This document shows positions 3,823-29,565 of a DNA stretch of 53,470 nucleotides, one piece after another; the first letter of the stretch is position 1, and every line of letters begins with the position of its first letter. The notes below the pieces were generated by a model that saw only the letters and a program-made list of their open reading frames with translations, was not told where the DNA came from and did no database searches. Position numbers and translations under genes: made by a program. This stretch comes from a virus. Location: positions 1-53,470 of the IMG/VR virus record IMGVR_UViG_3300023301_000001; one strand, given 5' to 3'.

Positions 3823-4944
3823 ATGCTGGAAATGAGAACAAGCGAACGGCGCGACCTCAAGACCTGCCCACAGCGGTGGTACTGGTCTCAGGTGGAAGGT
3901 CTCCGACCTCTCCGAGCCGCCAACCCGCTCTGGTTCGGGAGCGCGGTCCATGAGGGCCTCGCGGGGTGGTACATCCCCGGGACCAAGCGAGGAACGCACC
4001 CATCCGAGACCTTTGACAAGTACCTCGCCGGGAACCGCCGCATGCTCGTCACGAATGATGATGAGGAGACCGAGTACCAGGACGCGCGAGCGCTTGGGAT
4101 TGACATGCTTGACCGTTACGTGGAGCGTTGGGGCGAGGAGCCCGAGCGCGACGTCATCGCCTCTGAAAGGGAGTTCCAAGTGGTCCTCCCGAGGCCCGAG
4201 ATGGTCTTGTTCGGGAGGCATCGGCCCGCCGAGCGCCGCTGGCTCCGCTATGTGGGGACCTGGGATGGAGTCCACCGAGATCTCATCACCGGAGAGATCC
4301 GACTGGCGGAGCACAAGACGGCTGCGAGCATATGGGCAGACCACCTTCCGCTTGATGACCAGGCTGGCTCATATTGGGCCGTCGCTTCCAAGGTCCTAGA
4401 GAAGCAAGGGGTGCTGAAGGCGGGCGAGGAGATCGCTGGTATTGAGTACAACTTCCTGCGCAAGGCGCTCGGCGACACGAGGCCGGTCAACGCCGACGGG
4501 CTCCGGACTAACAAGCCGACCAAGACCGACTTTGTGGAGGCCATCGACAAGCACGGCGTTGAGGAGTTGCCCGGGCCGCTCGCGAAGTTGAAGGTGGTTG
4601 ACCTTGAGGCGCTCGCGGAGGAACTCGGGCTGACCGTATTTGGAGAGCCGAGCGCGCTCCAGCCACCGGCTTACTTTGAGCGTTTCATGGTCTACCGCTC
4701 GCGAGCCGAGCGCGGGCAGATGATCCGCCGCATCCAGGATGAGGCCGTGTTCGCCGAGGCTTACCGGAAGGGATGGCTGCCTGTTGTCAAGGCTCCAGAC
4801 CTACAGAAGTGCCGGGGTTGCCAATTCCGCCGAATGTGCGAGTTGGATGAGTCCGGCGACGCGCTCGCGGTGGAGGAGTTCAAGGAGATCCAGTTCACCA
4901 AAACAGACCCATACGCGGCGCACAGGAAGGATGTGAAGAAGTGA
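3823..4944 (+). CDS. Cas4/RecB-like PD-(D/E)XK exonuclease with Fe-S cysteine pattern
   Basis: 373 residues. Motifs in order: Cys15 (KTCPQRW), the FGSAVHEGL histidine motif near 40-46, an aspartate in GTWDGV, the catalytic E-x-K as LAEHKTA near 163-165, and a C-terminal CRGCQFRRMC (CX2CX5C) near 330-339. One N-terminal cysteine plus three C-terminal ones is the 4Fe-4S arrangement known from Cas4 and AddB nucleases. Family role: end resection that makes single strands. It is followed directly by Sak4-like and SSB-like genes, so it most likely supplies the nuclease of a phage recombination system. There is no CRISPR array or other cas gene here. Start ATG with an AAGGAGGAACC ribosome site. Confidence 0.88.
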   Translation: MLEMRTSERRDLKTCPQRWYWSQVEGLRPLRAANPLWFGSAVHEGLAGWYIPGTKRGTHPSETFDKYLAGNRRMLVTNDDEETEYQDARALGIDMLDRYVERWGEEPERDVIASEREFQVVLPRPEMVLFGRHRPAERRWLRYVGTWDGVHRDLITGEIRLAEHKTAASIWADHLPLDDQAGSYWAVASKVLEKQGVLKAGEEIAGIEYNFLRKALGDTRPVNADGLRTNKPTKTDFVEAIDKHGVEELPGPLAKLKVVDLEALAEELGLTVFGEPSALQPPAYFERFMVYRSRAERGQMIRRIQDEAVFAEAYRKGWLPVVKAPDLQKCRGCQFRRMCELDESGDALAVEEFKEIQFTKTDPYAAHRKDVKK

Positions 4945-5123
4945 AGGGCATGAAGGGCCTCGGGCGAGAGGATGCGGAGCGGATCAAGCGCCGCGCGCTC
5001 CGGTCGCAGGCCATGGGAAGGATCTCCGAGAGCGATGCCGCGTACATCACGCGACGGGCTGAGGAGATCATCGCACGGATTGTCTCAATGAAGGAGACCG
5101 GAACAGATGAGAGGGAGTTCTGA
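4941..5123 (+). CDS. Small helical hypothetical protein, 60 aa
   Basis: GTG start overlapping the nuclease stop (GTGA); an ATG at 4950 is the alternative. The product is rich in Arg, Glu and Ala (EDAERIKRRALRSQAM, YITRRAEEIIARIVSM) and should be two amphipathic helices. No family recognised. Its position between the Cas4-like nuclease and the Sak4-like ATPase, overlapping the latter by one base, suggests an accessory subunit of the recombination set. That is inference from position only. Confidence 0.65.
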   Translation: MKGMKGLGREDAERIKRRALRSQAMGRISESDAAYITRRAEEIIARIVSMKETGTDEREF

Positions 5124-5959
5124 TGGCAGTACCAGAACAGATTGGTAGCATTGGCCAAAACGCCAACTACATGCATATGCTGATCGTCGGCGACTCGGGA
5201 TTTGGCAAGACGGTATTTGCCGGCACCGCGCAGAATGCGCTATTCCTGACGACAGACCCGGAAGGAACTACATCAGCGATGATGATGGGGTCGACCGCGA
5301 AGGAATGGAAGATTGGGCATTGGCGCGAACTCAACGAGGCATTCCGATACCTCCGCGACGGCGGCATTGAGGAGATGGGCCTGGAGTGGCTGATCATCGA
5401 CAACATCTCTGCGGCTCAGAACTTCGGGATGGAGGCGACGATGGAATTGGCAAGGGAGAACAACTCCAAACTTGATGAGTTCATCTCCTCTCAGCAGGAT
5501 TATCTCCGGAGCCAGAACATGCTCCGCCAGATGGTCAAGACCTTCCAAGACCTTCCGGTCAATATCATTTGGACCTCATGGCAAGCGGTCCAAGAGAATC
5601 CGGACACCGGCGAGATCTACTTTGCGCCCGCTATTCACGGGCAGAAGGGCTCGCTGGCGCAGGAAGTCGCAGGGTACATGAACGTGGTCGGCTACGGCGA
5701 GGTGGTGAAGGACACCAAAGGCAACGAGGTCCGCCGCATTTGGTTCACGTTCAACGACGCATTCCGGGGCAAGGATCGCTTTGTCTGCCTCGGCGCATAC
5801 CAGGACAGGCTAACGGTTCCGAAGATGCACCGAATGGTTGAGGAAGCGAAGAAGGCCGCCATGTCCAGCAAGAAGGGATCCACCGGCGCCAAGGCCGGTA
5901 GGCCCGCAGTCAAGAAGGCTCCGGCAACACGCCGGACCGCTACAAGGAAGAAGGCATAA
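5123..5959 (+). CDS. Sak4-like RecA-family ATPase (recombinase)
   Basis: 278 residues. Walker A GDSGFGKT at residues 23-30 and Walker B WLIIDN near 90-94 in a short RecA-like core, typical of the phage Sak4 / AAA_24 single-strand annealing ATPases. A ~35-residue Lys/Ala/Thr/Arg tail (SSKKGSTGAKAG... ATRRTATRKKA) follows the core and resembles the tail of the H1-like protein at 3282. It lies between the Cas4-like nuclease and the SSB-like gene; Sak4 genes are commonly paired with SSB genes. Inferred role: ATP-stimulated strand annealing. Start by TGATG overlap. Confidence 0.85.
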   Translation: MAVPEQIGSIGQNANYMHMLIVGDSGFGKTVFAGTAQNALFLTTDPEGTTSAMMMGSTAKEWKIGHWRELNEAFRYLRDGGIEEMGLEWLIIDNISAAQNFGMEATMELARENNSKLDEFISSQQDYLRSQNMLRQMVKTFQDLPVNIIWTSWQAVQENPDTGEIYFAPAIHGQKGSLAQEVAGYMNVVGYGEVVKDTKGNEVRRIWFTFNDAFRGKDRFVCLGAYQDRLTVPKMHRMVEEAKKAAMSSKKGSTGAKAGRPAVKKAPATRRTATRKKA

Positions 5960-6909
5960 TGCCCAGCATCAAGAGGTCCAACGTCAAGGCCGAAGAAGTC
6001 AAGACTGGCTTTGAGGCGTATGACGGTCCTACTCCGACCAAGCGTGGGATGTACCGCGCGATCATCAAGCAGTTCAACTTCAAGGAGTTCCGCTCCGGCC
6101 GCACCGGCTTCTCCATCCTCGTGGAGTTGGAAGCGGCGGCGGGAGATCCGCACAACCACGAGCAGTTTGACGGCTTCCCGATCTGGAGCAACATCGTGTT
6201 CGGCGAGGAGGAAGCGCTCATGGCGCGGGAGTCCAACTTGTACGCCGCACTCGGCGCTGGCGACGGGCCGACGATCACCCATGATGAAGGCAACCCCACG
6301 ACCGGCGTGAAGGTCAAGAAGGTCGGCGGCAAGGACCCGATTGACAAGGCCGTATCGGTCGACATCAAGCAAGGCAAGTATGAGGGTGAAGTCCGGCCCG
6401 AGGTCGACGGCATCTACAAGATCGCCGGAGCCGCCTCTGCCGGGAAGGCGAAGGCAACCGCCGACGCTCCCGAGCCCGAAGAGGAGGACACAGCCGAAGA
6501 TGCCGGAGCCCGCGAGCGCGAGTTGAAGGCGCTCAAGGTCTCTGATCTCCGCGAGATCGCCGATGAACTCGGTCTGGAGACCGACGGCGTGAAGAAGGCC
6601 GACCTGATCAGCAGCATCCTTGAGGAGGAGTTTGGCGCCGAGTTTGCCGAGCCCTCCGAGGATGACGAGGATGAGGAGGATGAGGACGAGGAGGACGAGG
6701 AGGAAGATGACGAGGAGGATGAGGAAGATGACGAGGAGGATGAAGAGGCAGAACGCCGCGCCGACCTCGCCGGAGTCTCTCGCATCGAACTCAAGAAGGT
6801 CCTGAAGGAACTGGACCCTGACGCGAAGGTTCTGAAGAAGATGACCGATGAGGACATCGTGGACGCGATCATCGCCGAGGAATTTGAGAGCGATGAGCCT
6901 CCCTTCTAA
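5959..6909 (+). CDS. SSB-like protein with SAP segment and long acidic run
   Basis: 316 residues. Residues 1-150 are beta-rich (GMYRAIIKQFNFKEF... FSILVELEAAAGDPHNHEQF... IWSNIVFGEE) and fit an OB-fold single-strand binder of the kind next to Sak4. Residues about 192-225 (ALKVSDLREIADELGLET... ADLISSILEEE) match a SAP/Rho-N-like helix-extended-helix. Residues about 230-268 (nt 6649-6760) are an almost unbroken Asp/Glu run. A second SAP-like segment (RIELKKVLKELDPDAKVLKKM) ends the protein. Acidic tails on SSBs recruit partners; here the neighbour Sak4-like protein has a basic tail. Family assignment is by fold pattern and context. Confidence 0.72.
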   Translation: MPSIKRSNVKAEEVKTGFEAYDGPTPTKRGMYRAIIKQFNFKEFRSGRTGFSILVELEAAAGDPHNHEQFDGFPIWSNIVFGEEEALMARESNLYAALGAGDGPTITHDEGNPTTGVKVKKVGGKDPIDKAVSVDIKQGKYEGEVRPEVDGIYKIAGAASAGKAKATADAPEPEEEDTAEDAGARERELKALKVSDLREIADELGLETDGVKKADLISSILEEEFGAEFAEPSEDDEDEEDEDEEDEEEDDEEDEEDDEEDEEAERRADLAGVSRIELKKVLKELDPDAKVLKKMTDEDIVDAIIAEEFESDEPPF

Positions 6910-6936
6910 TCATCACCTCCATGGCTCGGTGGGGCT

Positions 6937-7019
6937 CTCCGCGTGCGCGAGTGCGCGGAGGGTCCCTCCGGTCCCGGCCCGGGGCTTTCATCACGTTAGG
7001 CGTGGAGAGAGCCCCGGGC
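6937..7019 (+). terminator. Double GC hairpin ending the recombination operon
   Basis: CTCCGCG (6937-6943) pairs with CGCGGAG (6954-6960). GCCCGGGGCT (6977-6986) pairs perfectly with AGCCCCGGGC (7010-7019). There is no T-run. It lies just after the SSB-like stop and before the phased-repeat region, so it probably separates two transcription units. From here to about 7425 there is no gene. Confidence 0.55.
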
Positions 7020-7090
7020 TGCGTTGAAGGGGCGAGGATCTCCTGCGGCTATGGGGCGGGAAGGCCCGAGCCGCGAGCGCCCAAGGGGTA

Positions 7091-7250
7091 TAGGGGTCAG
7101 CACAAGGTCACACAATCGACACAATATTCACACAATCGCTCTCCAATTTAACACAATCGACTTCTCCACTTCACACAATAAATGTGAGATGCCCTACACA
7201 ATCGGGGCTGTGAATTGTGTGAAGATTGTGTGGAATGTGTGAGTGTGAAA
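7091..7250. repeat. Phased ACACAAT repeat array, copy 1 (operator or origin candidate)
   Basis: Direct copies of ACACAAT start at 7110, 7119, 7130, 7151, 7173 and 7196. Inverted copies (ATTGTGT/AATGTGT) start at 7214, 7225 and 7234. Spacings are 9, 11, 21, 22 and 23, then 11 and 9, so the copies face the same side of the helix at one or two turns. The array is preceded by TAGGGGTCA and followed by GTGAAAG. Bases 7215-7241 are identical to 29533-29559. Short, phased, oriented repeats are typical of multi-site protein binding (iterons, operators). It lies just upstream of the primase-helicase. Function is inferred. Confidence 0.8.
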
Positions 7251-7332
7251 GATCTCGTGAGAATCTCGGAGGGTGCTAGGCGGGCTAGGGTAAAGAGCCC
7301 CGGAACAAGGAGAGGAAAGACTATATCAACAG

Positions 7333-7374
7333 TTTCTTCTTCTTCTTCTTCTGTTCTCCCTATATAGGTGTTTT
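7333..7374 (+). promoter_or_regulatory. TTC-triplet tract and TATATA promoter candidate, copy 1
   Basis: Six TTC triplets (about 7333-7351) are followed by TATATAGGTGTTTT at 7361-7374. The same order occurs at 29661-29692. TATATA is a good -10 box; no standard -35 is obvious, so activation by a protein bound to the upstream repeats is plausible. The leader up to the start codon carries GGTAGGGGA and then AAGGAG. Confidence 0.5.
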
Positions 7375-7425
7375 TGGTGGGTAGGGGATTTGAACAAGGC
7401 TTTGCAAGGCAAACAAGGAGACAAG

Positions 7426-10281
7426 GTGGCTGACAAGAAGTACAAGCCCGATACCGTGCGCGCAGCATTCAGCAAGTACGCGGTCGGCGATGAGAATGAC
7501 GGCGAGCAGAGGATGTTCTGTCCGATCTGCGAGAGCCCGGACTCAAGCAAGAGCCCGAGCGCGTCGATGAATGCTGACTCCGGAGTTTGGAATTGCCTAA
7601 AGGGCAACCACGGCGGTTCCATCGCATGGCTCGTGAGAGACTTGACCAATGAGCGCGGATTCAACATCCGTGCGGAAGCGATGCGAGGAAGGCACTTAGA
7701 CCAGACTTTCAGATCCGCCGCTGTCACCCGGCTCAACTCGGGCTCGCCGCTCCCGGATCCGGCGCAGATCTCAAAGTGGACCGAGGCTCTGATGGGCAAC
7801 AAGAAGGTCCTGGGCTTGATGATGGAGACTCGCGGGCTTGACCGGCGAACAATCATTGAATGGGAACTCGGCTGGGATGGCTCGCGCTACACCATCCCGG
7901 TACGCGACATCGGCGGCGAGTTGCTCAACGTCCGGCGCTACAAATTGAACGCCGGAGTGACGGACAAAATGCTCAACCTTCCCGGTCACGGCACAGCGCA
8001 GATATATCGCCCCGACATCCTCGCCAGCAACGAGGAGATCGTGATCACCGAAGGCGAGATGGATTGCATCATCCTCAACCAGTACGGCATCCCTGCGGTG
8101 ACGCATACGGCGGGCGCGGCGACCTTTCGACCTAACTGGGCGGGCATGTTCATCGGCAAGACGGTCTGGGTGGCGTATGACAATGATGACGCGGGCCGGA
8201 AGGGCTCCAAGAAGGTGGAGCAGATCCTCACCGCGTTTGCCGAGCGCGTGTACATCATGGAGATCCCGATACCTGTGAAGGGAGCCGATGTCACGGACTT
8301 CCTCCACAAGGAGGGGCACTCCGCTTCCGACTTCCGAGCGCTTATGCAAGTTGCACAGGAATCGGCATCGACCGGCTCGCTGAAGTCCGCCCCGCTCGCC
8401 GAGGCCGGAGAGCGGTTCAACCTCCAGTCATCGATGTCCCAAGCGAACCAAGCCAAGACCATGGAACTGATTGTGTCGATCTCCGGGAAGCAAGCCGAGC
8501 CCTACACCGCCCCAAAACGGATAACGGCGACGTGTGACATGTCCAAAGGAGCCGCCTGTGAGATGTGCCCCATTGCGGCGCGTAACGGGCAAGCCGAGAT
8601 TGATGTGAGAGAAGATGATGATCAGATTCTCCGCTTTGTCGATGTAACGGAACAAAGGCATAAGCAATTGCTCAGAGACATCACCGGCGCTCGCTGCTCC
8701 GACCGCGTGGAGTTTGAGGTTGATGAGAACTATCACATTGAGGAATTGCTTGTTCAGCCGAGCGTTGATGACCGCCAAGACGGCGAGACACAGCAGCCTA
8801 TCCGCCGCACCGCATTCTCGGTCTCCACCCACGCATCGACGGTCAACAGCAAGGTCCGGCTTGTCGGCAAGAACGTCTCAGACCCCAAGAGCGGGCGGCT
8901 GCGTTGGATGTCGTGGGTCAACCAGCCGGTGGAACTTGACATTGACAAGTTCACGCTCACTCCGGGACTCCGCGAGCGCCTGGAGACCTTTCAGCCAGTC
9001 GGCGGTCAATCGCCGCTAGACAAGGCGCTGGAGATCGCGAACGACATGGCGAGTAACGTCACGCATATCTATGGCCGTGATCTCCTCCACGTCGGCTATG
9101 ACCTTGTCTGGCATTCGCCGGTCTCATTCAAGATCCACGACATGACTATCCCCAAGGGCTGGCTGGAAATGCTCGTGGTTGGCGACACAAGAACGGGCAA
9201 GAGCGAGGCCGCCACCCGGCTCGCGAAGCACTACCGCTCCGGGATTGTCCAGTCGTGTGAGGGCATGTCCTTCCCGGGCCTTGTTGGAGGAGTCCAGCAA
9301 GTCGACGGGCGATGGCACATGACCTGGGGCGTGATCCCCATGAATGACCGGCGCTTGGTGGTCCTGGATGAGGTCTCGGGACTCAAGGAGAAGAATGTCA
9401 TTGAACAGATGTCTTCCATCCGCTCCTCGGGCATCGCGCAGGTCACCAAGATCGCCGCCGAGGAGACATCCGCCCGGACCCGGCTCGTCTGGATCGCCAA
9501 CCCCGCTGACGGGTCGATGATCCGCGACTCGCCGACCGCAGGCATGGGTGCTATGCGAACCGTCGTGGAGCACGCCGAGGACATCGCGCGTTTTGACTTT
9601 GTGATGGCAACCGCCAAGGGCGACGTTGACACGAGACTGATCAACGCTTCCTTCTCCGAGGTCCACAACCCGTCATACTCCTCAGAGGATTGCGAGGCGC
9701 TCGCGAAGTGGGCTTGGTCGCTCACTCGGGATGACGTCGTGATCTCTGACGCCGCCGCAGATGCCGCTGTCAAAGCGGCTATCAACCTCGGCGAGCGGTA
9801 CATGTCAGACCCGCCTCTCATCCAGTCTGAAAATGCCCGGTTCAAGGTCTTGCGAGTGGCAGCGGCGCTCGCGGCTCGCACCTTCTCAGTCTCCAAGCGG
9901 GGCAAACTCCAAGTAGGCCGGGAGCACGTCCATGATGCCGTCCGCTTCTTGGACATGATCTACGGCGAGAGCGCGATGGGTTACGCCACCGCCTCGGGCC
10001 GCTACTTGGAGAATGAGCGGCGAGCGGTAAGCAAGAAGGAGCAAGCCCGGGCCTACCTCCGCGAGCACCAGGATGACATCCTGCTAACACTCCGGATGGT
10101 CGGCGGCAACAACTTCCGAACTCGCGACTTTGCAGACTTTGGAGGGATGGATATTGCCGATGCGAAGCAGGTTGTTCACACGCTCCTGAAGTGGCAGTTG
10201 GTCTACACCAAGACGCGCGGCGACATCGGCATGAGCCCGATCCTCCAAGACGTCATCCGCGAACTGGAGATGGATGAGTAG
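7426..10281 (+). CDS. Bifunctional primase / MCM-like AAA+ helicase
   Basis: 951 residues. N-terminal CHC2-type zinc finger (FCPICESP near 31-38, WNCLKGNHGG near 56-65). Toprim domain about 205-270 with ITEGEMDC and the YDNDDAGRKG acidic motif. A middle region has cysteine pairs (CDMSKGAACEMCPI). The AAA+ domain has Walker A GDTRTGKS near 586 and Walker B LVVLDEVSG near 645. It is followed by GIAQVTKIAAEE and SARTRLVWIANP, which closely follow the MCM pre-sensor/sensor-1 pattern. A C-terminal winged-helix-like part follows. Inferred role: primer synthesis and fork unwinding in one chain. GTG at 7426 is chosen for its AAGGAG ribosome site; a TTG at 7390 is the alternative. A phased-repeat region lies immediately upstream. 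Confidence 0.87.
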   Translation: MADKKYKPDTVRAAFSKYAVGDENDGEQRMFCPICESPDSSKSPSASMNADSGVWNCLKGNHGGSIAWLVRDLTNERGFNIRAEAMRGRHLDQTFRSAAVTRLNSGSPLPDPAQISKWTEALMGNKKVLGLMMETRGLDRRTIIEWELGWDGSRYTIPVRDIGGELLNVRRYKLNAGVTDKMLNLPGHGTAQIYRPDILASNEEIVITEGEMDCIILNQYGIPAVTHTAGAATFRPNWAGMFIGKTVWVAYDNDDAGRKGSKKVEQILTAFAERVYIMEIPIPVKGADVTDFLHKEGHSASDFRALMQVAQESASTGSLKSAPLAEAGERFNLQSSMSQANQAKTMELIVSISGKQAEPYTAPKRITATCDMSKGAACEMCPIAARNGQAEIDVREDDDQILRFVDVTEQRHKQLLRDITGARCSDRVEFEVDENYHIEELLVQPSVDDRQDGETQQPIRRTAFSVSTHASTVNSKVRLVGKNVSDPKSGRLRWMSWVNQPVELDIDKFTLTPGLRERLETFQPVGGQSPLDKALEIANDMASNVTHIYGRDLLHVGYDLVWHSPVSFKIHDMTIPKGWLEMLVVGDTRTGKSEAATRLAKHYRSGIVQSCEGMSFPGLVGGVQQVDGRWHMTWGVIPMNDRRLVVLDEVSGLKEKNVIEQMSSIRSSGIAQVTKIAAEETSARTRLVWIANPADGSMIRDSPTAGMGAMRTVVEHAEDIARFDFVMATAKGDVDTRLINASFSEVHNPSYSSEDCEALAKWAWSLTRDDVVISDAAADAAVKAAINLGERYMSDPPLIQSENARFKVLRVAAALAARTFSVSKRGKLQVGREHVHDAVRFLDMIYGESAMGYATASGRYLENERRAVSKKEQARAYLREHQDDILLTLRMVGGNNFRTRDFADFGGMDIADAKQVVHTLLKWQLVYTKTRGDIGMSPILQDVIRELEMDE

Positions 10282-12850: not shown

Positions 12851-13478
12851 CATCCGCGTTCACCCGCTCGCTCCCGTGGTCGCTCTCGACATTGACGGGA
12901 CGCTGGGCGACTACTATGATCACTTCCGATGGTTTGCCGAATTGTACAAGCAGGAGCCGGTCGCGATTGACTGGGAGATCTCGGATGAATTCTCCGAGGC
13001 TCTCCAGATGGGCAAAGAGGAATACCGTGACATCAAACTCGCTTACCGCCAAGGCGGGATGAAGCGGAGCCTGCCCCTGCTTGACAACTTTGTTGAGCAC
13101 CTCGTGCCGGCAATTCGTGGCGGCTTTGGATTCCAAGTTTGGATCTGTACCACGAGGCCCTGGCAAAGGCTAGACAACATCGACCCAGACACGCAATTCT
13201 GGATCAACAAGAACCTCGGGAAGGTCGATGGCGTCATTTACGGTGAGGACAAGTACCTTGACCTGATTGACATCGTCGGGCTTGACCGAATAGTCGGCGT
13301 GTTTGATGACCTCCCGGAGAATATTGAAAGGGCCAACGCGCTCGGTCTCCGGGCTCGGCTCCGCGATGGCGGACACAACCGGCGCGGCGACCATGCCGCG
13401 CTCCTGAGAGTAGACAACAGCAGAGACATGATGGCACTGATTCGCCATTGGTCGACTGAGAAGAAGTCAGAAGCATGA
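12840..13478 (+). CDS. HAD-superfamily phosphatase, probable 5'(3')-deoxyribonucleotidase type
   Basis: 212 residues. HAD motif I VALDIDGTLGD near residue 17, motif II CTTRP near 102, motif III lysine in GEDKYLDL and motif IV acidic VFDDLPENIERA. The long cap insert and the TTRP form fit the deoxyribonucleotidase-like branch of HAD enzymes. Inferred role: dephosphorylating nucleoside monophosphates to shape the dNTP pool, in line with ThyX and the DUF1599-like gene downstream. ATGA overlap with the methyltransferase gene. Confidence 0.8.
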   Translation: MPNSIRVHPLAPVVALDIDGTLGDYYDHFRWFAELYKQEPVAIDWEISDEFSEALQMGKEEYRDIKLAYRQGGMKRSLPLLDNFVEHLVPAIRGGFGFQVWICTTRPWQRLDNIDPDTQFWINKNLGKVDGVIYGEDKYLDLIDIVGLDRIVGVFDDLPENIERANALGLRARLRDGGHNRRGDHAALLRVDNSRDMMALIRHWSTEKKSEA

Positions 13479-14965
13479 GTGGCCAGGTAACTCGGAGAGA
13501 GCGAGCCATTCGCACAATACCCTTCCCGCGACTGGTGGAGACCGTGAAGGAGTTGGAGGACTTGTCCAATTACACGGTTATTCGCGATTCAATGCATAAG
13601 ATTCTTCAAGCCTGTGATGAGGCTCCCGGCACTCGACTTTGGGAGCAAATGGGAGATCCAAGGCGTTTCCATTCTGCATCCGTAACGCTCCCCGCCGTTA
13701 TTCTTTCAATCAATGCTGCGGAGTTGAGCGCTCACTATCAAGATGACGCCGTGACGCTGTATCACAGCGATTGCCTTGATGCGCTGCGTAATCTTCCTGA
13801 CAACTCGGTCCACGCCATCGTCACCGATCCGCCGTATGGGTTGGCAAACACAGATCCGGTACACGTCACAAAAACGTTGCTCAAGTGGAGCAACGGCGAG
13901 CGCGACTACATACCGGGCGGTGCCGGATTTATGGGAAAGGCATGGGACTCTTTTGTGCCTCCGGTTGCTGTGTGGGATGAGTGTCTGCGGGTGCTGAAAC
14001 CGGGCGGGCACCTACTGGCATTCGCAGGATCTCGGACTCACGACCTCATGGGGCTCAGCATCCGCATGGCAGGCTTTGAGATCCGCGACTCAATCGCGTG
14101 GCTGTATGGGTCTGGCTTCCCGAAATCCTTGGATGTGTCCAAGGCGATTGACAAGGCGGCAGGGGCGATGCGGGGTGTCGTGGGCTCCAAGTTGGGGCAG
14201 CCCGGATACTCACTAGCCCCAAGCACGGGGGAAAATCTCTACGCGGGATCATTCGGTGGCACTGGCGACCCAGAGAAGGAGTCGCAGATCACGGCCCCGT
14301 CAACCCCCGACGCCGTCACCTGGCAGGGCTGGGGGACGGCACTCAAGCCCGCCCATGAGCCCATCGTCGTCGGACGTAAGCCATTTGCGGGAACTGTCGC
14401 CGCCAACGTCCTTGCACACGGGACCGGAGGAATCAACGTGGACGGGTGCCGGGTGCAGTATGTGAACGATGCCGACCGCGAGCAGACCCGCGTGCCAGAG
14501 CCAATTCAGCACAACGATGCGCGTGGCGTCTATCAGGCTGGCAATGGAGTCGGGCGCACTGGCTCTATCTTTGAGCCTGCCACCGCTGGCCGCTGGCCTC
14601 CGAATGTGGTCCTGGACGGCTCACAAGCAGACACGCTCGATGACATGACAAAAGGCCAGGGCGGCGCATCCCGGTTCTTCCCCGTGTTCCGTTACGGGCC
14701 CAAAGCGCCAAAGAGCGAGCGACCAGAGGTTGACGGCGTGAAACACCCAACCGTCAAACCTCTGGACCTCATGCGCTGGCTCGTGCGACTCGTCACGCCG
14801 CCTGGCGGGACTGTGCTGGACCCATTCGCCGGAAGCGGGACGACGGCAGAGGCGTGCGTCATCGAAGGCTTCAAGTGCATCGTCATCGAACGTGAAGCCG
14901 AATATCTGCCTTTGATCGTGCAACGAATTACAAAGCCATCATTACAAACAAGGAGAGAAACATGA
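13475..14965 (+). CDS. DNA methyltransferase (amino-methylating, DPPY ... FAGSGTT order)
   Basis: 496 residues. Catalytic motif IV is TDPPYGL near residue 117; SAM-binding motif I is DPFAGSGTT near 449-457. DPPY before FxGxG is the beta-class permutation of N6-adenine/N4-cytosine methyltransferases. HPTVKPLDLMRW before motif I is the usual motif X segment. About 90 residues precede the catalytic domain and are not assigned. No restriction endonuclease gene lies next to it, so it is probably an orphan protecting phage DNA or marking it. The 5' part is more AT-rich than its neighbours, which may reflect transfer. Confidence 0.9.
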   Translation: MSGQVTRRERAIRTIPFPRLVETVKELEDLSNYTVIRDSMHKILQACDEAPGTRLWEQMGDPRRFHSASVTLPAVILSINAAELSAHYQDDAVTLYHSDCLDALRNLPDNSVHAIVTDPPYGLANTDPVHVTKTLLKWSNGERDYIPGGAGFMGKAWDSFVPPVAVWDECLRVLKPGGHLLAFAGSRTHDLMGLSIRMAGFEIRDSIAWLYGSGFPKSLDVSKAIDKAAGAMRGVVGSKLGQPGYSLAPSTGENLYAGSFGGTGDPEKESQITAPSTPDAVTWQGWGTALKPAHEPIVVGRKPFAGTVAANVLAHGTGGINVDGCRVQYVNDADREQTRVPEPIQHNDARGVYQAGNGVGRTGSIFEPATAGRWPPNVVLDGSQADTLDDMTKGQGGASRFFPVFRYGPKAPKSERPEVDGVKHPTVKPLDLMRWLVRLVTPPGGTVLDPFAGSGTTAEACVIEGFKCIVIEREAEYLPLIVQRITKPSLQTRRET

Positions 14966-16429: not shown

Positions 16430-17037
16430 TGGATGTCGGGCGCTTGTTCGGGAAGGAGCCGCCCCGTGAGGAAATGACATCGCTCCGCGCGATTGTCGAT
16501 GACTTCCGGTGGCGGTTCCCGAGAGAGAAGCGGGACATGGTTGTGGTGTACTGCGAGGAGGCCGCGACGCTCCGCCAGGCCATCAAGCGGGCATGCGCCT
16601 CGCGAGCCGCGAACGGGAAGATGTCCAACCATCAGTCGCGAGTTCCGGAAGCGGTCCGCCAGACGTTCAAGCGGGCTCTGCTGGATGTCGTTGACGAGAT
16701 CGCGAGCGCGCCGGACTTTGATGCGCTTCACGAGATCGCCGACCGGGTGAAGCCTCCGGGCATCGGGCCGGTCACGCTGTATGACGTGTCAACCCGCATC
16801 GCCGCTCGGCTGGCGCTAGAGCCAACGTCCCTATACCTCCACGCGGGAGTGGCCCAGGGCCTCCGAGCGTTGGAGAGGGCCACAGGGAGCGCCGCGCGTG
16901 CCACGGACGGCATCATTCTCGCGGTCGACCTCCACGACGTATGGCCCGAGTTCGCGAGCCTCACGCCGGATGAGACTGAGGACCTGATTTGCACCTATCG
17001 GGAAGTGTTCCCGAGACTTGGAGAGGAACCAGAATGA
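16429..17037 (+). CDS. Hypothetical protein with helix-hairpin-helix-like motif, 202 aa
   Basis: GTG start overlapping the thyX TAG. Mostly helical and charged. The segment RVKPPGIGPVTLYDVSTRIAARL near residues 104-126 contains a PxGIGP turn between helices, as in helix-hairpin-helix DNA-binding motifs. No family recognised. It sits between thyX and the clamp-like gene, overlapping the latter by 4 bases, so a DNA-related role is plausible. Confidence 0.65.
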   Translation: MDVGRLFGKEPPREEMTSLRAIVDDFRWRFPREKRDMVVVYCEEAATLRQAIKRACASRAANGKMSNHQSRVPEAVRQTFKRALLDVVDEIASAPDFDALHEIADRVKPPGIGPVTLYDVSTRIAARLALEPTSLYLHAGVAQGLRALERATGSAARATDGIILAVDLHDVWPEFASLTPDETEDLICTYREVFPRLGEEPE

Positions 17038-17543
17038 CTATGAACCTACAAGAAGCAATCAAGGCAGCGGTGCCACACGTCAACAAAAGCGACACGGTAC
17101 CTGCGATAATCGGGCTCAAGATCGCAGGTGGCATTCTCTACGCGACCGACCGCTACACTGCAGTCCGGATTGAGGTGCCGGGTGTCGATGACGCTTGGGT
17201 TCCTTTAGGTGTGGCAAAGCAAGGCGTTGTGTCAATTTCTGACAACGCAGCAACGCTGAAGACGGGCGCGACGATGAACCTCCCGGCGCAGGAGGAGTGG
17301 CCCGACTATCCGAACATCGAGCGCCTGTTTGAAGGGTTCAAGCCTTGGAACACAAGTAGCCCAGACCCGCTCGCGTTTGGTCTGAACCCGGCCATGTTTG
17401 AGAAGTTCCTGCCCAGGCACTTCCCGCGTGACGCAGTCTCGGTGAAGGTTGAAATTGGTGAAACGCTAACCAAGCCGCTACGGATCACGCTCCCGGGATT
17501 CCCGGAGTTTGTGGCTCTGTGGGTCCCTATGATCATATCATGA
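17034..17543 (+). CDS. DnaN-like sliding clamp (short form), 169 aa
   Basis: The segment KIAGGILYATDRYTAVRIEV matches the conserved xATDxxR element of bacterial beta clamps. The C-terminal part, with DYPNIERLFEGFKPW, AFGLNPAMFEKF and a final PLRITLPGFPEFVALWVPM, parallels clamp segments ending in the VMPxR tail. Bacterial DnaN is about 370-400 residues with three domains; this has the size of about one and a half, as in other small phage clamps. Inferred role: processivity factor for the DnaE encoded downstream. ATG at 17034 has a GAGAGGA ribosome site. Confidence 0.68.
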   Translation: MTMNLQEAIKAAVPHVNKSDTVPAIIGLKIAGGILYATDRYTAVRIEVPGVDDAWVPLGVAKQGVVSISDNAATLKTGATMNLPAQEEWPDYPNIERLFEGFKPWNTSSPDPLAFGLNPAMFEKFLPRHFPRDAVSVKVEIGETLTKPLRITLPGFPEFVALWVPMIIS

Positions 17544-17680
17544 GTGACATGACTGACTGGCCTCAAGAATGCACCTGCAAAAGCGAGCCCATAAACCCAT
17601 CCGGACGCTGGATCAACTACTCATGCCCGATTCACGGTGGCCGCGAGGCCGTCACAACGGTAATCAAGGAGGACTCATGA
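17540..17680 (+). CDS. Small zinc-binding-type protein, 46 aa
   Basis: ATGA overlaps with both neighbours. The product has ECTCKSEP and then YSCPIHGG, giving a CxC-x(n)-CxxH pattern suited to one zinc ion. No family recognised. The overlap geometry is the main reason to accept it as a gene. Confidence 0.6.
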   Translation: MSDMTDWPQECTCKSEPINPSGRWINYSCPIHGGREAVTTVIKEDS

Positions 17681-18030
17681 AGATCAGCGTCAACACTCAA
17701 GGCAAGGGCGAACTCATCATCACCCCGGAGGAGAGCGACTCCGAGGAACTCGCCGGAATCATCCGGCAAGACTTCCCGATATGGCTGGCGGCGTTTGCCG
17801 CGAAGAATGCCGAATATCAAGATGGCATCGGGACCGCCTTCACGCTCGGCGAGCGCGGTCAATTCTCGGACATCTACCGGAAGGTGATGAAACTCAAAGT
17901 GGCTCTCTGGGACGGTCACGAGGAGCGGCTCACGTCAGAGGGCGTGGTTGAGATCCTCCGGGATCTCGTGGGCCACCTATTCCTCGCGCTGTACATGCGC
18001 CGGACTCGGAACCACAGCAAGCCGCTCTGA
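17677..18030 (+). CDS. DUF1599/MazG-like all-alpha nucleotide protein, 117 aa
   Basis: The core KNAEYQDGIGTAFTLGERGQ plus IYRKVMKLKVALWDG and VVEILRDLVGHLFLAL follows the DUF1599 ('nucleotide modification associated') / MazG-like pattern: K-N-x-x-Y, G-x-G-x-F, R-K-x-x-x-L and a D-L-x-x-H/Y helix. Relatives bind or hydrolyse nucleotides and often occur beside nucleotide-modifying genes. Here it lies with thyX, a HAD nucleotidase and a methyltransferase. Assignment is by pattern. The ATG at 17677 has an AAGGAGGACTC ribosome site. Confidence 0.6.
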   Translation: MKISVNTQGKGELIITPEESDSEELAGIIRQDFPIWLAAFAAKNAEYQDGIGTAFTLGERGQFSDIYRKVMKLKVALWDGHEERLTSEGVVEILRDLVGHLFLALYMRRTRNHSKPL

Positions 18031-18437
18031 TGGAGTACACATTCACCGATGCGATTGGTAAGAAGTATCACACGCCGCCAGGGCGCAAAGAGACTCCTGT
18101 GGAAATTAGGATATGGCCAAATGTGGACAAGTCCGCTCCGGCTCCTTCTGATAAGCCCTATCTTGGAAACTGCTGGGTGTGGACCGGCATCGTCAATCCT
18201 CAGCATGGTTATGTTTCCGTTTGGTACAAGAAGAAATATTGGAGGCTACATAGACTTGTGTATCACCTTATAAACGGGCCGATTGCAAAAGGGATGGTCA
18301 TCGGGCATAAATGCAACGTCAAGCATTGCTGTAGGCCTGAGCACCTTGAGGAAGTTACACAAGGGCAGAATACAAGAGACGCAATCAAAGATGGCTTGCG
18401 CAAGGCTGGCCTTTATTCTAAGGAGGTGATGTCATGA
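18030..18437 (+). CDS. Free-standing HNH homing-type endonuclease
   Basis: 135 residues with the usual phage HNH layout: CWVWTGIVNPQHGYVSV, then LHRLVYHLINGPIAKGMVIGH with KCNVKHCCRPEHL, then QNTRDAI. Catalytic His and Asn residues and the zinc cysteines are in place, so it looks intact. The gene is clearly more AT-rich than the genome, with A/T-ended codons, consistent with recent arrival as a mobile gene. It lies directly upstream of, and overlaps, dnaE; homing endonucleases often sit beside the conserved gene they cut. Confidence 0.88.
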   Translation: MEYTFTDAIGKKYHTPPGRKETPVEIRIWPNVDKSAPAPSDKPYLGNCWVWTGIVNPQHGYVSVWYKKKYWRLHRLVYHLINGPIAKGMVIGHKCNVKHCCRPEHLEEVTQGQNTRDAIKDGLRKAGLYSKEVMS

Positions 18438-18571
18438 CTCGGTCAATGGATTACGTTTCAATTCACAGCCACTCAACTTACAGTTACATGGATGGATATG
18501 GTTTACCAGAAGCGCACGTCCAGCGAATTGTCGATTTAGGAATGTCGGCGCTCGCATTGACCGAGCATTGA
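18434..18571 (+). CDS. dnaE: DnaE N-terminal PHP segment ending at an in-frame TGA
   Basis: ATG with an AGGAGG site at 18421. The 45 residues contain the PHP metal motif SIHSHSTYSYMDG and run to ALTEH, where family members continue HGN. Instead the sequence reads GAG CAT TGA CAT GGC AAT: six extra bases, TGACAT, with the stop at 18569-18571. The same frame then continues the PHP domain. By hand count this segment is about 46% GC, far below the following sequence. It is either the start of a read-through product, a broken gene end, or carries a sequence error. No other PHP start is available upstream. Confidence 0.7.
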   Translation: MTRSMDYVSIHSHSTYSYMDGYGLPEAHVQRIVDLGMSALALTEH

Positions 18572-18598
18572 CATGGCAATGTCAGTTCTCACGTCAAG

Positions 18599-19390
18599 TT
18601 GGAGCAGGCCGCGCAAGCCCACGGGATCAAGCCGCTGTTTGGTGTGGAGGCGTACACCGCGCCGGAGGATATGCGCGAGACCAAGAACCAGCGGAAGTGG
18701 CACCTGACCATCCTCGCGATGGACGGCGAAGGCTACCAGAACCTCATGAAGATGGTGACGAGATCCTGGGATGAGGACTTCTACCGATGGCCAACGATTC
18801 TGGGGTCCAACCTCAAGGAGAACAACGCCGGGCTCATCGTCGCGAGCGGCTGCTCAGACTCCCATTTGGCATGCTCGCTCCTCGGAGGGAAGGGCATTGA
18901 GGTCGGCGACTACCGCGCCGCAGTGAAGGTGCTGAAGCGGTACAAACGGCTGCTTGGGGATCGCTACTATTTGGAGGTGCAGCGCTTCCCGAAGTTGGAG
19001 CGCACGAGGATCTTGAACCGGCAATATGCGGCCTGGTCAAAGGAGTTCGGCATCCCATTGGTCGTGACCTCGGATGTCCACTACCCGTTCCCGGAACAGA
19101 ATGAGATGCAGAAAATCCTACACGCTGCGGGACGCGGCACGGGAACGGTCGCGGCGGCGGAAGCCGAATGGGAGTATGACATCCTCATGACCTACCCACA
19201 ATCAGACGCCGAGGTGTTGGAGGACTTAATCAAGACGGGCCTCAAGAAGTCAGAAGCCCAAGGAGCCATCGCGAGCACCGCCGAGATCGCCGAGCGCTGC
19301 ACGGTAACGCTCCCGAAGATGGACCGCATCCGCTACCCAGGAACAAGAAGGGATCTGGCACCATGGCCCGCAAAAAGAAGAAGCGCCTGA
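18599..19390 (+). CDS. dnaE: DnaE PHP-domain remainder (frame continues from 18572; ends by frame change)
   Basis: Homology in this frame begins at 18572 (HGNVSSHVKLEQAAQ), but the first possible start codon is TTG 18599, without a good ribosome site. Typical DnaE pieces follow in order: GIKPLFGVEAYTAPE, WHLTILAMDGEGYQNL, GLIVASGC, YLEVQRFPKLE, VTSDVHYPFPEQ and LPKMDRIRYP. These are well conserved, so loss of function would be recent. The frame ends at a TGA at 19388-19390, 28 bases after the start of the polymerase-core frame. The two frames meet around 19340-19390 near CGCAAAAAGAAGAAG. Confidence 0.7.
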   Translation: MEQAAQAHGIKPLFGVEAYTAPEDMRETKNQRKWHLTILAMDGEGYQNLMKMVTRSWDEDFYRWPTILGSNLKENNAGLIVASGCSDSHLACSLLGGKGIEVGDYRAAVKVLKRYKRLLGDRYYLEVQRFPKLERTRILNRQYAAWSKEFGIPLVVTSDVHYPFPEQNEMQKILHAAGRGTGTVAAAEAEWEYDILMTYPQSDAEVLEDLIKTGLKKSEAQGAIASTAEIAERCTVTLPKMDRIRYPGTRRDLAPWPAKRRSA

Positions 19391-21639
19391 GCGACCCTCT
19401 GGATGCTCCGGTCGACAGCATCGAACTCCTCTGGGAGTGGTGCCGACTTGGATGGAAGTATCGCGGGCTGAACTCGCTCCCGAGAGCCAAGCGGAAGGAG
19501 TACGGCGAGCGCGTCAAGTATGAGATGGATCTGATCATCAGCAAGGACTTTGTCGACTACTTCCTGGTGCTCTCCGACGTGGTGCGAGCAGCGAAGGATC
19601 GCGGCGTTGCTGTGGGACCTGCCCGAGGCTCTGCCGCAGCATCTCTGGTTTGCTACCTGACGCGCATCACCGAGGTCGACCCGCTCCAATTCCCGCTCAT
19701 GCTGTTTGAGCGTTTCATCGACCCCAACCGCCACGACCTCCCAGATGTCGACTTGGACTTTGAGGATGAGCGCCGGGATGAGGTGCGACAGATCATGGTC
19801 GACAAGTACGGCGATGACCGGGTGGGCAACATCGGGACCTTCACAAGGTATCGCGGCAAGAACGCCATCATTGACGTCGCGCGTGTCTTCAGCATCCCGC
19901 CATATGAGGTAGCGCGAGCCAAGGAGTTCATGCTGGAGCGCTCGGGAGGCGACTCCCGGTTTGACGCGAGCATCATGGATACCGTGGAGATGTTCCCAGA
20001 GGTCAAGGAAGTCTTTGACAAGTATCCGGACCTGTACAAGAGCATCGAACTGGAGGGCAACTACAAGGCGTTCGGAGTCCACGCCGCTGGCCTCGTGATT
20101 GGCGCCGAGCCGCTATGGAATTACGTGGCGACCTACTCCAAGAGCAACGTGGGCAAGAACCACAACACGGTCAAAGTCCTCTCAGTCGACAAGTTTGACG
20201 GCGAGCACCTCGGGCTCATGAAGTTGGACGCGCTCGGGCTCTCGACCATGGGCATGATCGCTCGCGCGCTCCGCATGGTCGGCATGACGCTGGATGACTT
20301 GTACGACATCCCGCTGGATGACGCCGAGACTCTCCAGGCATTCAACGACGGCGACGTCATCGGCATCTTTCAGTTTGAAGGCCGGACGATGAAGATGGTC
20401 TGTGAGGAGTTGAAGCCAGAGACCTTCATGGACCTCGCCGCTGTCAACGCGCTCGCGAGGCCGGGGCCATTCCATTCGGGCTCCACGGCGGAGTACATCG
20501 CCATTCGCCGAGGCCAGAAGGAGGCCGACGTGATCCACCCCATCGTGTCCAAGATCTGCGAGGCGACCGAAGGCCAAATCATCTACCAGGAGCAGATCCT
20601 GAAGATCACCCGCGATGTCGGGCAGTTCCCGTGGACGCACGCCGCCGCCATCCGCAAGATCATCTCGGCTCGGAAGGGCGAGAGCGCGTTCAACGCCATG
20701 TGGGATGAGTTCAAGGTCGGCGCGGCTTCCATCGATATTGACGAGCACACCGCGATGGAGATTTGGAAGCGGATGGCGACGGCAGGAACCTACGCATTCA
20801 ACATCGCGCACTGCGTCTCATACTCCATGCTTGGCTTCTGGGCGATGTGGCTCAAGGTCCACTATCCTCTGGAGTTCTATGCCGCCCAACTTCACAAAGC
20901 GGCGGATGAGGAGAAGAAGGTGGCCATCATGCGCGACATGCACTCAGAGAAGTTCGGGCGCACGTATGACGTCCTCCCTCCGGACCCGCAGGAGAGTAGC
21001 GAGACATGGGTGCCGGTCTCTGGAGGAGTCCGGGCCGGGTGGCTACAACTACCGGGTGTCGGTGAACTCCGAGCCGAGGACATCACCGCGCTCGCGACCT
21101 CGGGCGAACTAGAGACATGGGCCGACCTGGAGAAGGTCAAAGGGCTCGGAGTCAAGACCGTAGAGAAGGTGGAGGAGTTCTGCGGGCTCGCCGACCCATT
21201 CGGCATCAACGAGATCCGCGACCAGACTAACGCCATCAAGGCCGCCATCCGCTCGGGCGCTCTCCCGGGACTCCCGTACCCGCACAACGTATCTGATGAG
21301 ATTCCGTATGAGGCCAAGCGCTGGCGCGGAGTCCTCCTTGCGAGAATTCGTGACCTTGACCTCCACGACTTGTTTGAGGACCACCGCGCGCGAGTCGGTG
21401 AGGACTTGGACCCGGATACGATCAAGGACCCGCACCTGAAGGAGTCGCTCAACGTGTACTCGGAGGATGTCGCCGGGCGGCTGACCATCAAGTTGTCGCG
21501 CTATGACTACCAGAGGTTCATGGCCGATATTTGGGACGCCAAGACGGGCCATGACTACATCCTCGCCGACGTGTTCAAGTGGCCCAACTCGGGCAAGAAC
21601 GTCACCGCCCGCCGCATCTGGGTCATCGACCCTGACTGA
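19363..21639 (+). CDS. dnaE: DNA polymerase III alpha subunit, catalytic core and C-terminal domains
   Basis: 758 residues in frame 1, after the PHP part in frame 2. Polymerase motifs: VGPARGSAAASLVCY, PDVDLDFEDERR (two catalytic Asp) near 127, LMKLDALGL (third catalytic Asp), GIFQFEG, ARPGPFHSG, EGQIIYQEQ and NIAHCVSYSMLGFWAMWLK. Then come a helix-hairpin-helix segment (LEKVKGLGVKTVEKVEEFCG) and an OB-like end. Joined with the PHP parts the protein would be about 1,080 residues, a normal DnaE length. It could be translated alone from ATG 19363, which has AAGGGA 9 bases upstream, giving a split polymerase, or by a -1 frameshift. Nuclease proofreading is not encoded here. Confidence 0.92.
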   Translation: MARKKKKRLSDPLDAPVDSIELLWEWCRLGWKYRGLNSLPRAKRKEYGERVKYEMDLIISKDFVDYFLVLSDVVRAAKDRGVAVGPARGSAAASLVCYLTRITEVDPLQFPLMLFERFIDPNRHDLPDVDLDFEDERRDEVRQIMVDKYGDDRVGNIGTFTRYRGKNAIIDVARVFSIPPYEVARAKEFMLERSGGDSRFDASIMDTVEMFPEVKEVFDKYPDLYKSIELEGNYKAFGVHAAGLVIGAEPLWNYVATYSKSNVGKNHNTVKVLSVDKFDGEHLGLMKLDALGLSTMGMIARALRMVGMTLDDLYDIPLDDAETLQAFNDGDVIGIFQFEGRTMKMVCEELKPETFMDLAAVNALARPGPFHSGSTAEYIAIRRGQKEADVIHPIVSKICEATEGQIIYQEQILKITRDVGQFPWTHAAAIRKIISARKGESAFNAMWDEFKVGAASIDIDEHTAMEIWKRMATAGTYAFNIAHCVSYSMLGFWAMWLKVHYPLEFYAAQLHKAADEEKKVAIMRDMHSEKFGRTYDVLPPDPQESSETWVPVSGGVRAGWLQLPGVGELRAEDITALATSGELETWADLEKVKGLGVKTVEKVEEFCGLADPFGINEIRDQTNAIKAAIRSGALPGLPYPHNVSDEIPYEAKRWRGVLLARIRDLDLHDLFEDHRARVGEDLDPDTIKDPHLKESLNVYSEDVAGRLTIKLSRYDYQRFMADIWDAKTGHDYILADVFKWPNSGKNVTARRIWVIDPD

Positions 21640-29410: not shown

Positions 29411-29565
29411 AGGGGTCAACACACATCCACACATTCCACACATTTTCACACAATCGTTCCTCAGATCTCACACAATATTGTGGGGGAACTCACACAATAA
29501 TGGAAAAGGCCCTCAGGAAACTCACACATTTATTGTGTGAAGATTGTGTGGAATGTGTGGCCGTG
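29411..29565. repeat. Phased ACACAAT repeat array, copy 2
   Basis: ACACA(A/T)T-type copies start at about 29421 (variant), 29429, 29438, 29448, 29470, 29492 and 29524. Inverted copies start at 29532, 29543 and 29552. Spacings of 8, 9, 10, 22, 22 and 32, then 11 and 9, again follow the helical turn. CACAATATTGTG at 29471-29482 is a perfect palindrome made of two copies. The array is preceded by TAGGGGTCA, as in copy 1, and 29533-29559 is identical to 7215-7241. Bases 29302-29410 hold no gene; a short GCTGC/GCAGC hairpin lies near 29370-29390. Confidence 0.8.

Follow-up and report, generated by a model that had tools for sequence, protein, structure and literature searches.

A six-base inverted copy places an in-frame stop in the PHP gene of a phage dnaE, directly downstream of a free-standing HNH endonuclease gene

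The window, that is, the whole stretch of DNA analysed here, consists of the 53,470 bases of one IMG/VR virus record. By its main proteins this is a tailed phage, with terminase, portal, capsid, tape measure, tail and endolysin proteins alongside a helicase, a primase and an exonuclease. The source virus is actinophage-like and, around dnaE, stands nearest to the Microbacterium phages of the Krampus/Rie18 group and to the Arthrobacter phage Wollypog. Because no tyrosine-type integrase or resolvase-type recombinase is found in the 53,470-base record, which may be incomplete, the phage looks virulent. The replication region includes a DNA methylase gene (N6_N4_Mtase, 13475-14965), and the stretch at 16989-17543, just upstream of the dnaE genes, weakly resembles phrog_947, a DNA polymerase processivity factor (sliding clamp) of phages. 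The genes that follow all lie on the plus strand. The first of them (17569-18030) is a MazG-like or nucleotide-metabolism gene with a weak match to phrog_10271; it occupies the position of gene 55 of Rie18, and such a gene precedes dnaE-PHP in the relatives. It is followed by a free-standing HNH endonuclease gene of low GC content (18030-18437, 135 aa), by the gene for the PHP domain of DnaE (dnaE-PHP, 18434-19390), and by the polymerase part of dnaE (19363-21639, 758 aa; Pfam DNA_pol3_alpha and DNA_pol3_finger), an intact and separate gene.

The dnaE-PHP frame opens with ATG at 18434, is closed by TGA at 18569, directly after codon 45, and reopens at 18572 to run as far as its final stop codon at 19388-19390, so that the uninterrupted frame of a DnaE1-type PHP exonuclease is not found here. 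Direct reading of codons 44-48 gives GAG CAT TGA CAT GGC, with first bases at 18563, 18566, 18569, 18572 and 18575, respectively, followed by AAT at 18578. Six bases are in excess, TGACAT at 18569-18574 or, equivalently, the shifted placements TTGACA, ATTGAC and CATTGA; they supply the in-frame stop and a second CAT codon. The first CAT (18566-18568) encodes the conserved metal-ligand histidine of motif II. Taken together, the two pieces of the frame hold 9 of the 9 metal-ligand positions of the PHP domain (H7, H9, D16, H41, E66, H84, C134, D208 and H210 in alignment numbering), the mapping of which onto Mtb residues is in part our assumption. The nine-ligand metal site of the PHP exonuclease is described in PMC5636811. 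Downstream of the TGA the gene is undamaged: the piece at 18572-19390 matches Pfam PHP with 82.6 bits, is 72% identical to gene 56 of Rie18 and keeps the remaining metal ligands, and the polymerase gene is intact too. A second lesion at 19390 is ruled out, as close relatives likewise encode PHP and polymerase separately. The earlier note had described six extra bases creating a stop inside a frame conserved on both sides, and had concluded that the interruption is recent, read through or an error; the codons, the two open pieces and the retained ligands bear out the description, and the conclusion follows soundly from six extra bases in a conserved frame.

Comparison with the closest relatives, which the earlier note had proposed, covers 48 fetched loci with the motif, corresponding to 42 distinct contigs or records, since six were fetched twice; locus L028, having no motif match, was excluded. 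All of them read T(E/D)HGN with no stop at this point, and none of the 42 carries the insert. The family motif had been given as ALTDHGN, which does not hold for this subfamily: nearly all of the relatives read ALTEHGN, and D-H-G-N is found in one of them (AITDHGN). A degenerate scan for H-stop-H-G-N in viral_contigs returns 0 other cases, and the same scan in genome_contigs returns 12 matches, none of which is PHP-like in context and which are attributed to chance only. The Rfam search over 17400-19600 gives one chance-level match elsewhere and, at the insert itself, neither a group I intron nor any other known structured RNA, and an element of this kind at the insert is accordingly ruled out.

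Reverse-complemented, the inserted TGACAT gives exactly the ATGTCA that stands at 18579-18584, four bases downstream, with GGCA between the two. The insert thereby forms a hairpin at 18563-18590 (arms GAGCATTGACAT and ATGTCAGTTCTC, loop GGCA), which encloses both CAT codons and the stop; the arms are of 12 bases, of which 11 are paired when G-U is counted. Folded in silico as RNA, this hairpin reaches -12.8 kcal/mol with a z of -3.96, and the same segment in four relatives gives -5.5 to -8.3 with z about 0, like shuffled sequence. An inverted copy of bases only four nucleotides away points to a mutational mechanism of the fold-back or template-switch type. A second inverted repeat, complementary at 17 of 20 positions, connects 18429-18448, over the dnaE start, with 18555-18574, the last base of which is also that of the insert; in an RNA fold made in isolation, the start region pairs with the insert region. 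Inverted repeats of such quality within 150 nt number only 3 in the whole window; repeats matching at 18 of 20 positions are seen at 7116-7234, between two major ORFs, and at 29422-29565, at the end of a small ORF, both being possible terminators. The left arm at the dnaE start also contains four extra N-terminal codons, MTRS (18434-18445), which are lacking in the relatives, whose PHP proteins begin MKYVS or MHYVS.

The HNH gene lies directly 5' of the interrupted gene and overlaps both of its neighbours by start and stop codons (TAATG and ATGA). Its HNH_3 domain (18246-18377) scores 49.8 bits against a Pfam cut-off of 24.8, PHROG HNH families are matched with a best E of 1.6e-25, and it is the only HNH_3 gene within the record. 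At the junction between the MazG-like gene and dnaE-PHP it is present here and absent in the relatives. Strict-pattern searches of viral_contigs found no relatives of the HNH protein, and among the matches listed for the phage collection there are only distant HNH proteins, at ~35% identity. A distinct composition is readily apparent from the GC3 values, which are 0.54 for the HNH gene, 0.49 for the first 45 dnaE codons (18434-18568) and 0.84 for the next 45, with a genome-wide mean of 0.76. The change-point analysis from the HNH gene through dnaE-PHP places a single break at 18589 (0.52 to its left, 0.80 to its right, LR 38.6, 0 of 2000 permutations as good), and the insert falls inside the support interval of 18538-18601. 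A gene missing from this place in the relatives is accordingly flanked by a tract of foreign composition. Read most simply, the HNH gene and the start of dnaE would have entered as one tract from a lower-GC relative, ending at or near the insert.

The arrangement of a dnaE-PHP gene followed by a dnaE polymerase gene is shared with Rie18/Krampus and Wollypog, the PHP proteins being 70-72% identical, and in Rie18 the MazG-like gene 55 likewise stands directly before dnaE-PHP (gene 56). In contrast to the present record, these phages lack both an HNH gene ahead of PHP and a stop within PHP. Wollypog carries a NUMOD4/HNH_3 gene between PHP and polymerase, and several other relatives, e.g., L008, L019, L023 and L037, have a fused single dnaE gene. 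In L018, a 64.9-kb virus contig, the dnaE polymerase ORF (4747-7881) contains an intein-like segment after TYAF, with Intein_splicing below the Pfam cut-off and a CxxC/HNH-like stretch. Between PHP and polymerase the same contig has a small ORF (4421-4762) that looks HNH-like by eye (CxxC...CxxC) and has no Pfam HNH match. In this group dnaE seems to be a repeated target of homing elements, and their presence within or next to the split of both Wollypog and L018 suggests that endonuclease invasion may have caused the separation of PHP and polymerase.

The origin favoured here, although it falls a little short of an even chance, is that the insert is real, recent and templated, and lies at or near the 3' edge of a tract that arrived with the HNH gene from a lower-GC relative. 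The HNH protein would be a homing endonuclease that cuts dnaE; repair of the break would have carried in the low-GC tract, and fold-back priming in the course of that repair would have written TGACAT by copying ATGTCA at 18579-18584, which would leave a genuine UGA after codon 45. Fold-back insertion during repair is the most likely origin of the six bases; synthesis that folds back at a broken or stalled end produces short inverted copies of this kind. This account draws on the HNH_3 gene directly upstream, the single GC3 change point with its interval spanning the insert, the complementarity of 6/6 inserted bases to a neighbouring segment that forms no hairpin in the relatives, the attraction of dnaE for homing elements (the Wollypog HNH gene and the L018 intein-like segment), the preservation of all PHP ligands and both flanking frames, and the lack of an integrase or resolvase-type recombinase in the record, which makes decay inside a lysogen a less than obvious cause. 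Phage homing endonucleases as a rule co-convert flanking sequence (PMC2988022). Short inverted templated fold-back insertions, mostly of ~5-34 bp and located beside the break, are known at double-strand breaks in yeast (PMC11724301). The insert resembles these events, and quasi-palindrome template switches, in that it repeats, in inverted orientation, a short stretch lying only a few nucleotides off and in having a size within the documented range; however, the cited cases come from yeast or E. coli, and the present one is deduced from one sequence.

Several points weigh against a homing origin. The insert is known from one contig, the HNH protein, at 135 aa, is short and has a putative activity and target, and the low-GC tract could be older than the insert and have no connection with it. 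For fold-back the precedent comes from end joining in yeast rather than from a phage process. Sites with a 6-bp arm and a loop of 3-6 nt are no rarity either, numbering 81 in the genome, though few of these are likely to be recent insertions. Furthermore, as lysogeny genes appear to be absent, it is hard to accept that the majority sequence would be a null allele of a gene for replication. The earlier note, which was right about the insert, the stop and the frame, had missed the HNH gene with its low-GC tract, the inverted copy and the matched CAT codons. If the insert is a homing scar, it would be a clear snapshot of an endonuclease tract that ends inside its target gene and is able to break it.

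A plain nonsense mutation, independent of the HNH gene, is possible at a distinctly lower level of probability. A template-switch replication error at the quasi-palindrome would then have broken dnaE-PHP, and the phage would be defective or do without PHP, the subunit being replaced by the host polymerase or proofreading. Quasi-palindromes are described as hot spots of template switching in PMC7202029, and with PHP and polymerase encoded by separate genes the polymerase part could still be made. Such an error leaves the coincidence with the GC3 edge unexplained. The loss of PHP should also be costly, because the relatives all keep an intact nine-ligand PHP and the metal-site mutants of Mtb DnaE1 lose stability and activity (PMC5636811).

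Slightly less probable again is an artefact of assembly, amplification or sequencing, by which the gene would be intact in the population and the six bases would come from a fold-back chimera or from a minority variant that the assembler picked. In-vitro fold-back chimeras can give such an inverted copy of adjacent bases, and the insert is found in a single virus record, with no independent contig to repeat it. The remark in the earlier note that six-base insertions are untypical as sequencing errors is fair as far as it goes, but amplification fold-back chimeras could make one. Against an artefact, a consensus error needs the insert in most reads, and the junctions of two-strain assemblies need long shared overlaps and would not yield a 6-nt inverted copy. 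The rest of dnaE-PHP and the other major genes tested, moreover, read cleanly.

If the insert is real, several translational outcomes can be considered, which cut across both accounts of a real insert; the confidences attached to origin and outcome therefore overlap and do not sum to one. Under this condition, loss or great reduction of the PHP product is the leading outcome, at just under even chances, while a +6 stop-hop from CAU to CAU has a modest probability, readthrough a similar or marginally smaller one, and other outcomes a small residue. TGA terminates 15 of the 30 likely genes of this genome and is the commonest stop, so UGA is a normal stop here; with half of the genes checked ending in TGA, its reassignment to an amino acid is ruled out.

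Since the TGA stands between two identical CAT codons, hopping is as natural a route of suppression as readthrough. In a stop-hop, the His-tRNA on CAU at 18566-18568 (the take-off codon) would detach at the UGA, re-pair with the CAU six bases on (18572-18574, the landing codon) and resume at GGC, which would yield the exact family protein; taken on its own merits, this is unlikely. Matched codons around the stop leave nine bases for one amino acid, the layout that hops in the synthetic constructs of Weiss et al. (1987; cited in PMC5009743); here it occurs in a natural phage gene, and the hop is hypothetical. The insert would then be a tolerated, translationally bypassed, HNH-linked element, in the manner of the 50 nt that are bypassed in T4 gene 60, downstream of mobA. 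As in T4, an HNH endonuclease gene lies immediately upstream of a replication-related gene, the insert falls near codon 45 (codon 46/47 in T4), the take-off and landing codons are identical with a stop directly after take-off (CAT TGA CAT, 18566-18574), and a stem-loop, in this case the hairpin predicted above, holds the take-off codon and the stop, here together with the landing codon. Of the in-frame insertions of six bases that would create a single stop here, only 0.8% leave identical codons on either side, and the gene is undamaged elsewhere.

In contrast to T4 gene 60, the gap is of 3 nt and in frame rather than of 50 nt, no KKYK-type nascent-peptide signal is present upstream (residues 1-45 contain no Lys), and the HNH protein and the target gene are different ones, with bypass and cleavage protection both putative. 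The matched codons, in addition, come automatically with a fold-back insertion at this spot, because the resident CAT already faced ATG. Synthetic stop-hops are inefficient, and the scans of viral_contigs and genome_contigs gave no second example. A shade more doubtful than the hop itself is the proposal that it would be a natural minimal stop-hop, written during HNH invasion of dnaE and possibly guarding the gene from re-cleavage, and as such the smallest endonuclease-linked bypass. If hopping does occur, it would be a natural in-frame stop-hop, of which none is known according to a major review (PMC5009743). T4 gene 60 would then no longer be alone among phages as an example of bypass linked to an HNH gene.

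Readthrough, in which a near-cognate tRNA decodes the UGA and the product reads TEH-x-HGN with two extra residues beside a metal ligand, is on the whole quite improbable. The six bases are in frame and the downstream frame is kept, and a UGA followed by C is a leaky context. However, the product would be two residues longer within a motif whose length is the same in every relative in which it was found, the codon is the commonest stop of this genome, and Rfam gives no known recoding element. A restart downstream at TTG 18599, the first in-frame start, is unlikely, with no Shine-Dalgarno-like bases just upstream and 4 of the 9 ligands lost. A hop would give the peptide IVDLGMSALALTEHGNVSSHVK and readthrough would give TEH-x-HGNVSSHVK, and a peptide reading ...ALTEHGNVSSHVK without extra residues would not be a readthrough product. 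Whether the insert is a scar of homing or is hopped by ribosomes, annotators would call dnaE-PHP here a pseudogene or set its start too late.
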